From: Mytilus galloprovincialis
Lineage: Eukaryota; Mollusca; Bivalvia; Mytilida; Mytilidae
Assembly (NCBI RefSeq): GCF_965363235.1
Contig: NC_134844.1
Coordinates: forward strand, 19,450,646 to 19,514,645
Direction of reading: 5' to 3'
Length of the DNA: 64,000 bases
Shown: piece after piece, positions 29,815 to 64,000 of the stretch
How the letters are laid out: each line of letters opens with the position of its first letter
Numbering within the stretch: the first letter of the stretch is position 1
The notes under the pieces: model-generated
Told to the model about the DNA's origin: nothing
Seen by the model: the letters and a program-made list of their open reading frames with translations, nothing else
The model's database searches: none
Made by a program: the position numbers and the translations under genes

Positions 29815-30016
29815 AATACTGAGGCTTTTGTACCTCAGGTATAGATTACCGTAGCTGTATCTGGCAAAACTTTTAGGAATTTTGGTCCTCAATGCTCTCC
29901 AACTTATTTGACCTTTTTAACTTTTTTGGATTCGAGCGTCACTGATGAATCTTTTGTAGACGAAACATGTGTCTGTCGTATATACAAAATTTAGTCCTGG
30001 TATCTATGATGAGTTT
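29815..30016 (+). repeat. R5 element (hammerhead-bearing), copy 1
   Basis: The copy runs from GAGGCTTTTGTACCTCAGG to TATCTATGATGAGTTTA and shares its full order of phrases with the copy at 52992-53195 (TTTTAGGAA, TTGGTCCT, TTTTTTGGATTCGAG). Short size and a ribozyme motif fit the retrozyme or Penelope terminal-repeat type of element. It has no protein-coding content. Confidence 0.75.
29936..29979 (+). ncRNA. Hammerhead ribozyme motif, degenerate copy
   Basis: CTGATGA (29942-29948), GAAAC and GTC are present in order. Stem III is a two-pair AC/GT helix with a four-base loop. Stem I pairs GCGTCA with TGTCGT, with one mismatch. The base of stem II is an A opposite C instead of G-C. Activity is therefore likely reduced. 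Confidence 0.6.
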
Positions 30017-37960: not shown

Positions 37961-38215
37961 ACATCATTAAGTCGTGCTAAATTACAGAAATGTTCGAATT
38001 GTTTACATTTTGGTTTCCGTAAATGCATTTGTGTTCATACTTTAATGTAAGTTGTATTTGATGATAATACATAACATATATAAAGGTTGAGAATGAACAT
38101 GGATGCGGCCACTTTTACTTTTGACAAAACCATCTAAAAAGTGACATTTTATGGCATATTTGGAAGGTTTTTCATAGCTAAGCTTCAATTTAAGCGTCTT
38201 TAATGACTTATAGTT

Positions 38216-38350
38216 ATCAATGTACCAGGATTATAATTTAGTACGCCAGACGCGCGTGTCGTCTTCATAAGACTCATCAGTGACGCTCATATCAAAATAT
38301 TTAAGGTACCTTATAAAGCCAAACAAGAACATAGTTGAAGACTAAATTAG
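38216..38350 (-). repeat. R5 element (hammerhead-bearing), copy 3
   Basis: On the minus strand the hammerhead core is followed by ACTAAATTATAATCCTGGTA, the same 3' context as copy 4 at 62404. It interrupts the inverted-end unit 37731-38480. Confidence 0.7.
38243..38286 (-). ncRNA. Hammerhead ribozyme motif with altered core
   Basis: Stem I is complete (GCGTCA with TGGCGT) and CTGATGA, stem II and the GTC site are in place. The invariant GAAA reads GACA, so this copy is probably inactive. Confidence 0.65.
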
Positions 38351-52850: not shown

Positions 52851-52991
52851 TGTCTGCTTATCATGTTTTTGAATTTTGTCAGATTTTTTGAATCCTCTAG
52901 TTTTATCCATTTGAATGCCTTAAAAAAATTCCCCATGAACACCCATTCTTCTTTTTATAAATCTTTACAAATTTTTGAATTTTTGAAAAAC

Positions 52992-53195
52992 TAAGGCTTT
53001 TCTTCCTCAGGCATAGATTACCTTAGCTGTATTTGGCATAACTTTTAGGAAATTTGGTCCTTAATGCTCTTCAACTTCGTACTTTATTTGGCCTTTTTAA
53101 CTTTTTTGGATTCGAGGGTCACTGATGAGTCTTTTGTAGACGAAACGCGCGTCTGGCGTATATTCAAAATTTAGTCCTGGTATTTATGATGAGTT
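52992..53195 (+). repeat. R5 element (hammerhead-bearing), copy 2
   Basis: Runs from TAAGGCTTTTCTTCCTCAGG to TATTTATGATGAGTTTATT. It is the best-preserved copy, about 200 bases, with the same order of phrases as copy 1. Confidence 0.8.
53116..53159 (+). ncRNA. Hammerhead ribozyme motif, intact core
   Basis: CTGATGA at 53122-53128, stem II GTC with GAC around a TTTTGTA-type loop, GAAA, a two-pair stem III (AC with GT closing a GCGC loop), then the cleavage triplet GTC. Stem I pairs GGGTCA with TGGCGT through four pairs before a G opposite G. Very short stem III helices are known in ribozymes of Penelope-like elements and animal retrozymes, where dimers are thought to be active. Confidence 0.75.
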
Positions 53196-55740: not shown

Positions 55741-55862
55741 GATTTTTGTATTCACATTACATGTGCATGGAAAGCAAATTCTTTATAGAGAGGTTTAACA
55801 ACATTTTCAAAGAAGACCAAAAAAGTCAAAAAACATATTTTTGTATTTCTATGTCACCCAAC

Positions 55863-56230
55863 AGTGTTAGATCTGTAAATTTGCGGAAGCAAATGTAGCC
55901 GGGAATCGATCTCATGCAACTGAGATAAAGTGGCACATAAATGATCGCTTGAAATATGCCCGACGCGCTAGACCACTCGACCACCTAGGATCTACAATAA
56001 TGACTTTCGTTGGCCGGGTGTTATCTTTCCTCGTATATAATAATGTACTGTGTTACGACACTAGATAAAAAAAAAATTGACGAGGAAAGGTAACACGAGC
56101 CTAGGTGGTCGAGTGGTCCAGCATCAGGGATAGTGCTAGCGACTTGGTGCCTCGATATTTCAATATATCAGTTCGAATCCCGACTCGGACGGAAGATAAA
56201 ATTTGCTTCCACAAATTTAGAAATCTAACA
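55863..56230. mobile_element. tRNA-box foldback element, arrangement I
   Basis: The outer ends are TGTTAGATCTGTAAATTTGC at the left and a diverged complement at the right. The arms face each other, and the centre carries the TTACCTTTCCTCG and CGAGGAAAGGTAA words. The plus-strand arm has an A-box-like TGGTCGAGTGGTC and a B-box-like GTTCGAATCCC about 70 bases apart, as in a tRNA-derived sequence; the other arm has the same in inverse orientation. Compared with 63334-63836, inside and outside are exchanged. Confidence 0.7.
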
Positions 56231-57290
56231 TTTTTCGGCTGATATTTAGACGAATTATATATACAGAATGTGTTGTCATAAAATCAGTAGTAATGAAGTA
56301 AACAATTAAGTTAACCATATATTTGTTGTAAGAACATCAACTACGATGGGTATTTTTGAAGTTGAGCTCAAAGTTGAGATTAATATAGTAATTATATTAT
56401 TTTATTACGGTTAAGGAATCAATCTGTACTATCAGTGCCACGGGTAGTCCACCTATGGATATCAATCAATCGAGGATAAATTATCTTTTATCTCCAAAAC
56501 CAAGGAAAAATACAATGCTTTGCAAAAACGAAGAAAGAGACAGACATCGTAGAATTAAAACCTGACCTCTATAATTATTTCAACATATTTCCATTTTGCG
56601 GAAGTTTTTGTTTATTTTTTTGGTTTTTGGACGTTTTATCACATGTGGAATAAAAACGATGACAAATTATATTTATCGAAATACCATATTATAAAATAAG
56701 AAAGATTCTACTTTGACAACATAAAGCCCCAGTCTCATTGTCACGTTTCTTCTATCCCGTTTTGCTACAAATTCAAGATTTTTCATACTAATCCCCATTC
56801 CATGCTTTTGTATATATGACATATTGTGGTTAAAAATTTCAGAGCTTGTTATAAAATCCATTATTCTGTCTTGAGATGATGGAAACAAAGATATTAGACA
56901 CTTTAAAACATTAAATCTGCAAAATACTCAGCTGTAAAGTTGCCTTTGTTACCTGTATTAATTTATGATAAAGCTGACTTATGTCCCTTGGATGTATTAG
57001 TTTCCAACTAAAGTCCTTTCAAACAGTAGGAAATAAAAAAATTATTTATGTCTGATATAATAACAGAAAGAAACTACAAAATGAAGCAGTATTGAAATAT
57101 TTGCAGCATGAATTATCAAAAATGTGAACCAATCTTTACACAGGAGAGTATTAATTCTATGTAAATTTAGCCTCAAGTGGGCCTCTTTTTTCTTAGATGA
57201 ACAATTCTAACACTGAAAATGCTTCTAGTGTGACCAAATATTGTCTAATGACATAAACAGTACAAACTTAACCAGACAATTTCCCATTTT
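56231..57290. other. Non-coding or unidentified sequence
   Basis: A minus-strand open frame at 56673-56888 (includes NLEFVAKRDRRNVTMRLGLY) has non-random-looking content, but I do not recognise it and it lacks splice support. Confidence 0.3.
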
Positions 57291-62167: not shown

Positions 62168-62403
62168 CATATATACATATATATAATTAAAGAAGTAACA
62201 CAGAACTAAGTAGATACAGATATTAATATAGTTTTGATATGAAAAGTAAACGAGTGGCGAAAAATACCAAAGGAGCAGTCAAGTTCATAGATCAAAAACA
62301 AACTGAAACGCCATTGCTAAATAAGAAAAAGACAAACAGACAAATAATAGTACACCAGACACATCATAGAAAAACCAAAGATTAAGCAACAGGAACTTAT
62401 TAA

Positions 62404-62560
62404 AGGTACCAGGGTTATAATTTAATACACCAGACGCGCGTTTCGTCTACATAAGACTCATCAGTAACGCTCCGATCTGAATAGTCAGAAAGCCAAACAG
62501 GTACAAAGTTGAAGAGCATTCCAACAAGTTGTGCCAAATACGGCTAAGGTAATCAATTCC
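62404..62560 (-). repeat. R5 element (hammerhead-bearing), copy 4
   Basis: On the minus strand it begins with GATTACCTTAGCCGTATTTG, continues TGGAATGCTCTTCAACTTTG, and ends TAAATTATAACCCTGGTACC. It follows directly, on the same strand, the reverse-transcriptase fragment at 62575-62796, as a terminal repeat of a Penelope-like element would. Confidence 0.75.
62427..62470 (-). ncRNA. Hammerhead ribozyme motif, intact core
   Basis: CTGATGA, stem II (GTC with GAC), GAAA, the two-pair stem III with GCGC loop and the GTC site are all present. Stem I pairs GCGTTA with TGGTGT throughout if G-U wobbles are allowed. Confidence 0.72.
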
Positions 62561-62574
62561 TGGGATTAGCAAAT

Positions 62575-62796
62575 CCTTAGTTTTACGAAAAATTCAAAGT
62601 TTTGTAAACTGTATCTGTAGTATCCTCTATCTCTAGTTCGATGGGATATATTCGTTACATAGTCACCAAATTTTGAATTATTTAGTGAGAGAACATCATC
62701 TATATAGCGGAATGTAAAGTTAAGGGATATTGCTAACTTCAAACCTATGATTGCGTAAGGTAAAAAACGCACAAACAACATTTTCCAAAAGAACAA
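62575..62796 (-). mobile_element. Penelope-like reverse-transcriptase fragment with YIDD site
   Basis: The minus strand encodes FTFRYIDDVLSLNNSKFGDY, the catalytic YxDD box of a reverse transcriptase followed by the NNSKFGDYV word that also begins the 9.9-kb copy. It is a broken fragment, joined on its 3' side to a hammerhead-bearing R5 copy. Confidence 0.75.
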
Positions 62797-62828
62797 AAAA
62801 GTTAATTATATATATATATATATATATA

Positions 62829-62995
62829 CTACTCGTCTAAACATCAACCCAACAATGTTAGATCTGTAAATTTGCTTTCGCAATTTTTTTGTTCTTCCCT
62901 CGCCAGGATTCGAACCCATGCTACTGAGATATCGTGACACCTAATCGCCTGCACTGTAGCCGTCCCGCTAGACCACACGACCACCTGGCCTCGCG
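62829..62995 (-). mobile_element. Single arm of the tRNA-box foldback family
   Basis: The minus strand has TGGTCGTGTGGTCTAGCGGG, then CAGGCGATTAGGTGTCACGA and GGGTTCGAATCCTGGCGAGG, ending TTTACAGATCTAACATTG. One arm is present without an inverted partner next to it. The next copy begins about 340 bases on. Confidence 0.7.
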
Positions 62996-63153
62996 GTCAT
63001 AAAACTTTCGAGCATGATTTTTGTACTCAGACTCGAAAATCAACCAATCAAATTGCTGGATTTCATGTTTCGAGCATGATTTTTGTGCTCCGAGCACTGA
63101 GCAAAGTTTTATGCCTTCAAGGCCGGGGCTTCAAATAAATATGTATATATATA

Positions 63154-63246
63154 TAAGTACGTCTGAGTCAGTGACAACTCTACAACAGATTTATTCATCG
63201 GAAGGATAAATCTGTTGTAGAGTTGTCACTGACTTAGACGTACTTA
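63154..63246. repeat. Perfect-looking hairpin of about 38-bp arms
   Basis: GTCTGAGTCAGTGACAACTC on the left arm is mirrored by GAGTTGTCACTGACTTAGAC on the right around a short CATCGGAAGG-type loop. One mismatch is visible. It is not part of the tRNA-box arms and may be a small transposon relic. Confidence 0.75.
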
Positions 63247-63333
63247 TAAATATAATTATTTTCTGTGATTGTATCTTGCATTAATTTGTAGGATCCTTTA
63301 CTATAGATAATTGAGCTGTTCTGTAACAATAAC

Positions 63334-63836
63334 ATCTCCATGCCTTATATATCATATACTGTAGTACGACGCTAGATTAAAACTGACGAGGAAAGGTAAC
63401 ACACGGCCACTGAAAGCTTTATTATTGTGAAGCCCAGGTGGTCGTGTGGTCTAGCGGGACGGCTACAGTGCAGGCGGTTAGGTGTCACGATATCTCAATA
63501 GCATGGGTTCGAATTCCGGCGAGGGAAGAACGAAAAATTTGCGAAAGCAAATTTACAGATCTAACATCATATATATACAACTCGTCTAAACATCAACCCA
63601 ACAATGTTAGATCTGTAAATTTGCTTTCGCAAATTTTTTGTTCTTCCCTCGACGGGATTCGAACCCATGCTACTGAGATATCGTGACACCAAATCTCCTG
63701 CACTGTAGCCGTCCCGCTAGACCACACGACCACCTAGGCTTCAAAAAATAAAGCTTTCGGTGGCCGTGTGTTACCTTTCCTCGTCAGTTTTAATCTAGCA
63801 GCGTACTACAGTACATGATATATAAGGCATGGAGAT
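63334..63836. mobile_element. tRNA-box foldback element, arrangement II
   Basis: Two arms of about 233 bases (63334-63567 and 63604-63836) are near-perfect complements around a 36-base spacer. The left arm reads outward to inward: CATGCCTTATATATCAT, CTGACGAGGAAAGGTAACAC, then a tRNA-like segment with A box TGGTCGTGTGGTC and B box GGGTTCGAATTCC about 70 bases apart, then TTTGCGAAAGCAAATTTACA. The right arm repeats this inverted. The B box is a good internal Pol III promoter match and the A box is fair. No protein is encoded. No target duplication is readable. Confidence 0.78.
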
Positions 63837-64000
63837 ATATATATATATATATTCTTACTGCATATTCCATCATGCATTTTCAATTTTATTTTAAGAAATT
63901 AAGATCTTCTACTATCAAAATTATCAAAACAGAACATCACATTTCAAATTTAGAAACCTACATTAATCAAGAAATTATTCCGAAAGGACTCATTTTAAAG

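Follow-up and report, generated by a model that had tools for sequence, protein, structure and literature searches.

The palindrome and its surroundings

The window analyzed here is a 64-kb stretch of DNA (G000:C7:19450646–19514645 of a 1.385-Gb assembly). At positions 63334–63836 it carries the 503-bp palindrome reported in the initial annotation, which was recovered as two inverted repeats with arms 94–95% complementary: an inner one (63425–63567 and 63604–63746; 143 nt, 94%, spacer of 36 nt) and an outer one (63334–63426 and 63744–63836; 93 nt, 95%). Each arm corresponds to part of a 443-bp unit with a GC content of 40% and no evident coding capacity. The unit (positions designated u1 to u443, numbered from GGTGGTCGTGTGG) has an A box at u11–21, a B box at u70–80 and a TATATA tail at u159–164, followed by a 276-bp body (u168–443).

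Alignment to the unit resolves the palindrome into two copies of opposite orientation. The left copy (63197–63567, + strand) runs from u204 to u443 and then from u1 to u132; its segment 63334–63567 is the left arm, so that the copy extends past the palindrome. The right copy (63564–63836, − strand) comprises u341–441 (63737–63836) followed by u1–172 (63564–63734). Its 5′ end at u341 abuts a TA repeat (63837–63852) and its 3′ end is TATATATA at 63570–63577. The palindrome is only part of a larger structure, which continues just upstream with a second inverted junction, an insertion with terminal inverted repeats (TIRs) and a third copy. A u205–275 piece (63131–63202, − strand by unit alignment) is placed head-to-head with the left copy near 63200. 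The resulting hairpin (63146–63199/63201–63254; 54 nt, 93% complementary) joins u205 to u204. The third copy (62820–62985, − strand) consists of head and tail (u1–167), as found by unit alignment and box search, and its TATATA end is overlapped by a TA repeat at 62807–62828. The inverted-repeat search identified at 62984–63127 an insertion of ~140 bp with 25-nt TIRs (80% complementary), which, as read from sequence and alignment, lies between the third copy and the few bases that precede its head. TA repeats flank the whole cluster at both outer ends. Old pieces of the same family, 65–78% identical and arranged head-to-head, are also found at 55856–56271 of the window.

A and B boxes of opposite orientation were annotated in both arms, and a search with the consensus sequences of these boxes found them there, facing each other. 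The A box TGGTCTAGCGG is exact in the left (63447–63457, + strand) and in the right arm (63714–63724, − strand). The B box is exact only in the right arm (GGTTCGAATC; 63656–63665, − strand); the left one (63506–63515, + strand) has the core GGTTCGA intact and a single mismatch to GGTTCRANNC. Two strict A..B pairs occur in the 64-kb window, both on the − strand (63656–63724 in the right arm and 62907–62975 in the third copy). Sixty Markov-shuffled windows had a mean of 0.05 such pairs (maximum 1), and an occurrence of the boxes by chance was rejected. As to the description as tRNA-like, ARAGORN reported no tRNA, and the tRNA model is absent among the cmscan matches listed for 62500–64000 at E up to 1. 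The boxes are therefore the whole basis of that label.

When the palindrome is folded as RNA 88% of its 503 nt are paired, as expected of any near-perfect palindrome. Convergent Pol III transcripts and double-stranded RNA (dsRNA) might be produced from the palindrome. A microRNA assignment was rejected because all 25 Rfam matches listed score below the gathering threshold; those over the palindrome and over the 63146–63254 hairpin are what any long hairpin yields. No Rfam family reaches its gathering score within the 64-kb window. Segment u366–418 (~63359–63411 in the left copy) is an inverted near-copy of the head (u1–34), i.e., of the unit's own box region, and therefore places a strong long hairpin just upstream from the A box.

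Relationship between the two arms

The initial annotation interpreted the palindrome as a foldback element, a hybrid of SINE and MITE, and called for a genome-wide count of its copies. When up to 3 mismatches are allowed, the 32 nt of its center match the genome once forward and not at all in reverse, versus 5,293 matches of the unit head word (see below). In a genome search with the palindrome, the best 40 of 2,802 candidates included tandem arrays and many matches to one arm only. Other palindromes of the family have different breakpoints. The palindrome is not, in other words, a repeated sequence with constant termini and center.

The relationship of the arms was assessed on a 235-nt segment in 101 copies from 51 loci, with 16 duplicate or unrelated loci excluded. 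The arms are 0.944 identical, which compares to a mean of 0.937 (sd 0.023; 4,855 pairs) for copies from different loci and of 0.965 (177 pairs) for same-strand copies of one locus. Each arm has nearer relatives at other loci (0.979), the opposite arm ranking only 50th and 58th among 100 relatives. Fourteen columns show a departure from the commonest base in either arm and none of these departures is common to both, unlike what arms derived from one sequence would show. The arms also differ at the common polymorphisms u376, u418, u431, u434 and u44. Divergence alone is not decisive, because same-strand neighbors can be equally unlike (locus means range from 0.935 in L040 to 0.989 in L006). The arms are, however, no closer to each other than copies of separate loci and have no shared derived state, and are best read as two unrelated copies. 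According to the sequence comparisons, the palindrome is thus a unique junction at which two different copies of the 443-bp unit meet tail to tail, and the SINE-MITE hybrid was abandoned. An artefact of reads folding back is unlikely, because nearly identical arms would be expected of it while those of the palindrome differ at 14 aligned columns.

The 443-bp family, its ends and its inverted junctions

Unit words were searched genome-wide with up to 2 mismatches. The head word has 5,293 matches (2,559 + 2,734) and the two body words 4,325 (2,103 + 2,222) and 4,686 (2,259 + 2,427), with none for the reversed control of each. Head and body are therefore about equally common. The matches listed are distributed over contig C1 and over a portion of C2. 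Several loci contain head-to-tail arrays: L021 has 6.4 copies with a period of 443 bp, and further arrays are found in L020 and L071. The last one (2382–9582 of L071; C1:27.75 Mb) has 16 full units and a partial one, each third unit being of a 91% type, which suggests a three-unit higher-order repeat.

Averaged over 20-nt stretches, the consensus columns built from 124 fragments reach 0.92–0.98, with 0.85 for the final 3 columns, and we regard the copies as young on the basis of this sequence comparison. The box columns are 94–100% conserved among ~100–113 covering fragments, barely above the rest of the unit. Conservation of the boxes among copies, on which their annotation had been made to depend, was thus found, and the SINE-like nature proposed in the initial annotation is retained for the 443-bp family.

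The 3′ ends of the inserts are recurrent: 37 of the 71 free ones map to u158–178 (about u164–173), 13 to u182–186, 11 to u250–268 (near u260) and 10 elsewhere. The second site is TA-rich, being TTATAAATATAA in the consensus and not TATATA. A strict (TA)4 test was positive for 13 of the 37 ends at u158–178 and 8 of the 11 at u250–268, and 12 of the 13 ends at u182–186 continue in TA. On the 5′ side, (TA)4 is found within 14 nt in 19 of 72 flanks as compared to 0.36% of 9,129 window positions; the 53 flanks without it make TA flanks an excess and not a rule. The 5′ ends themselves, counted from an unbroken unit query, are scattered over the unit. The fullest 20-nt bin (u421–440) holds 13 of 86, with a mean of 3.9 per bin. 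Pol III transcription starts are expected 10–20 nt upstream from the A box. The u421–440 peak is compatible with such a start, which is only suggestive since the peak is modest (9 of 86 free 5′ ends at u428–441).

Target site duplications were searched as strings common to both flanks. Strings of at least 12 letters, other than TA only, were found in 2 of 52 simple loci versus 2.0% of mismatched pairs (~1 expected), and strings of at least 8 letters in 7 of 52 versus 6.9%. Target duplications are thus not shown in general across the family, as judged from these flanks. The clear case is L015, with a 19-bp flank on both sides that partly overlaps the TATA end of the unit; L033, the other locus with 12 letters or more, has a string of TA with a single C. 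Several insertions adjoin a recurring flank, CAAACCTATGATTG..GTTGGATAAAAACCGC or the complement of it (window 62738–62775; L031, L045, L056, L060, L067, L070, L074; also L012 and L013). L012, L013, L031 and L067 have 0.7–0.9 kb of flank in common, and the recurring flank is probably another repeat with a TA tract.

Inverted junctions were identified in 21 of 83 loci. They amount to 31 (17 tail-tail and 14 head-head) with 30 distinct breakpoint pairs, the repeated pair resulting from a local duplication in L006. A recount, made without a control, gave an overlap or insert of 7 nt or less at 25 of the 31. The loci were the window and 44 others chosen by similarity to it (11 of these 45 with an inverted junction), together with a non-random sample from contig C1, for which the exact head matches at the top of the list were taken. 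In this sample the junctions were found in 10 of 18 loci read over at least 3 kb and in 0 of 20 read over 0.9 kb. With such differences among the subsets, the true junction rate is uncertain. Sixteen rows were left out of this count and of those on arm identity, insert ends, target duplications and outer ends of head-head pairs: L001–L004, L025, L026, L037 and L042–L044 (coinciding with other loci or with the window, or duplicates of these), L069 and L074 (whose layouts match those of L066 and L070, marking them as near-duplicates), and L075–L078 (hammerhead loci). The near-duplicates L068 and L073 (95.5% over 2.0 kb), neither of which has an inverted junction, were both retained. The pairs L068/L073, L066/L069 and L070/L074 all lie on C1 at 26–31 Mb, which suggests segmental duplication.

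Some junctions fold back at a near-identical unit position (205/204 in the window, 146/147 in L006, 86/75 in L072) and may be snap-backs. Judged by unit position, both outer ends of head-head pairs lie at one of the two 3′ sites in 5 of 14 cases, and at least one in 13 of 14, the two zones spanning 57 of the 443 unit positions. One of the five both-end pairs (L065) is without an adjoining TA run.

Known relatives and mode of spread

The closest kinds of known elements are tRNA-derived SINEs and metazoan retrozymes. The 443-bp family resembles the former in its internal A and B boxes, which are conserved from copy to copy, the absence of evident coding, the thousands of dispersed copies, the 5′ truncation with variable 5′ ends, and the recurrent 3′ end with a simple-repeat tail. 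It differs in the 443-bp head-to-tail unit, the 276-bp body upstream from the box region, inserts that often include part of the previous unit and the lack of a detected tRNA fold. It has in common with the metazoan retrozymes described in the available part of PMC7229834 the short tandem repeats, dimer to multimer, and a genome that also harbors hammerhead repeats; unlike them, it has Pol III-type boxes and a unit in which no hammerhead was detected. SINE-derived satellites, as far as the accessible text of PMC10702118 describes them, also form tandem arrays with parts of SINE promoters, whereas many 443-bp arrays retain retroposon-like ends next to TA repeats. Foldback elements and MITEs share the palindromic look, without the unique center, arms of different sources and differing breakpoints found here. 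The 5′ inversions of LINE-1 attributed to twin priming (PMC4245944, accessible part) are similar in their head-to-head junctions with little overlap or insert; tail-tail joins are here as frequent as head-head ones (17 vs. 14), and the two copies can differ in source. A further candidate was Helenus, a group of TRIMs with a tRNA-like promoter found in bivalves, including mussels, and characterized by a PBS and a PPT between LTRs and a 4-bp TSD according to the available text of PMC10886601. It is likewise a short non-coding retroelement with a tRNA-like sequence. A Helenus-type LTR structure was dropped because the 5′ ends of the 443-bp family vary, being scattered over the unit, with no LTR pair of fixed outer ends. 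In the accessible part of PMC10294476, on bivalve transposons, the mollusc V-SINE RUDI is named in the reference list only. No description of the 443-bp family was recognized in the literature searched; it may be catalogued in Repbase or Dfam. An exact search of IMG/VR with the 25-nt head word had no match, records of this genome possibly being left out of that collection. We thus consider the family, from its sequence features, as SINE-like, tandem like retrozymes, and new as far as the literature searched goes.

A mussel is known to have tandem repeats of 350–390 bp that contain type I hammerheads (PMC7229834). The hammerhead family RF00163 has at least 37 matches with E ≤ 0.001 in the present genome, 29 of them over the cut-off (with 74 of 224,653 candidates scored), and none in 14 control genomes. 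Four hammerhead loci were confirmed at 38–42 bits. The window contains four relics of this type I hammerhead repeat (29815–30010, 38212–38341, 52953–53190 and 62397–62609; ~72–89% identical by piece), none of which reaches the Rfam gathering score, nor does any other hammerhead in the 64 kb. Hammerheads were absent from the cmscan results for 62500–64000 (E ≤ 1) and for roughly three units of the array in L021 (E ≤ 10). Comparison of the 443-bp unit to the four hammerhead loci gave no significant similarity (best E 0.085). A CTGAYGAG...CGAAA string in the unit was rejected as a hammerhead; as read from the sequence, it lacks a proper cleavage site.

The best explanation, to which we give a probability of about 0.7, is that the family is a non-autonomous retroposon whose RNA often comprises several units and serves as template at TA-repeat targets, with copying that begins at TA-rich sites inside the RNA and insertion in both orientations. 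Its RNA, enzyme and priming steps are those that we infer from the organization of the copies. Transcription by Pol III (or read-through) would produce an RNA spanning one or more 443-bp units, and a reverse transcriptase supplied in trans would open a (TA)n target. The exposed TA strand would pair with the RNA at UAUAUA (u159–164) or at UUAUAAAUAUAA (u251–262) and prime cDNA synthesis; priming at these internal sites would leave recurrent 3′ ends, TA flanks and 5′-truncated inserts of one or several units. As (TA)n is its own complement, both strands could serve as the starting point of an insertion. Opposed copies with joined ends, of which the window palindrome would be one pair, would result when a single TA tract undergoes repeated or two-strand (twin-priming-like) events; the joining might proceed as at the LINE 5′ junctions described in PMC4245944. 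Because twin priming explains head-head joins only, tail-tail joins would need repeated insertion in the same tract or later rearrangement. The observations behind this mechanism are the TA-rich recurrent 3′ ends, the variable 5′ ends, the excess of TA flanks, the tandem units and the opposed copies. Against it stand the left copy of the window, which ends at u132, outside the 3′ sites, the second 3′ site that is not TATATA, the TA flanks that are an excess only, and the junctions folding back at a near-identical unit position, which resemble snap-back more than independent insertion. DNA duplication also contributes to the growth of some arrays, as the higher within-locus identity and the long patterned arrays (L020, L071) show.

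These same arrays and identities would fit a satellite with a captured SINE that spreads via DNA recombination and not RNA. A SINE-derived satellite is reportedly present in a limpet, which also speaks for such an origin, and others are known in reptiles according to the available text of PMC10702118. The thousands of matches, spread among those listed along C1 and part of C2, and the recurrent 3′ ends, variable 5′ ends and TA flanks that are signs of retroposition make it improbable nevertheless. A single copy could otherwise have snapped back, or been duplicated in inverted orientation, during one insertion by cDNA template switch or fold-back repair, and diverged later. Junctions of the family that fold back within ~10–15 nt would be accounted for in this way, as would the 54-nt hairpin at 63146–63254 that joins u205 to u204. 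The palindrome arms, however, meet at u132/u172, share no derived state, carry different common variants and have their nearer relatives (0.979) elsewhere, so that such an origin is unlikely for the palindrome. The mobile foldback element, a SINE-MITE hybrid moving as a palindrome, could call on the boxes in each arm and on the few other loci with nearly full-length two-arm matches (one on C6, two on C12). With a center found once, other centers in the L005 and L006 palindromes, 62 of 83 loci without an inverted junction and arms from different source copies, its probability is very close to nil.

An animal non-LTR retrozyme, in which a unit RNA circularized by a hammerhead is reverse-transcribed from circles into tandem copies, would account for the tandem form, size and 40% GC content, which resemble those of the metazoan retrozymes in the accessible text of PMC7229834. 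Type I hammerheads are present in the genome, relics of a hammerhead repeat occur in the window, and the unit contains the CTGAYGAG...CGAAA string. However, the cmscan searches yielded no hammerhead in the unit, the four hammerhead loci are not significantly similar to it, its expected helix III has no cleavage triplet after it, and the old copy near 56 kb has T in place of the motif's first C. This origin is accordingly quite improbable. Somewhat doubtful, though worth stating, is a bolder form of the TA-targeted retroposon: a Pol III-promoted, hammerhead-free counterpart of retrozymes, with multi-unit or circular RNA, two TA-rich priming sites and both target strands able to prime, whose palindromes would be a regular by-product of targeting.

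With the TA-targeted retroposon, a supposed new class of elements (the SINE-MITE hybrid) is removed and a testable rule takes its place: a retroposon targeting a self-complementary microsatellite would generate opposed copies, palindromes and possibly dsRNA without any foldback element. The family is worth naming. It combines Pol III boxes and tandem inserts with a unit in which no hammerhead is detectable, although hammerhead repeats are present in its host genome, and would thus allow asking whether a ribozyme is needed for tandem retroposition of this kind. A sister repeat was observed in L017 (~514–899), 61% identical to the unit over ~400 bp (E 2.5e-13). It aligns to u204–443 and continues to u161, with a similar tail, CTAACATTGTT. 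Pieces of it are also found in L060 and L074, and the sister repeat suggests an older group of such repeats.
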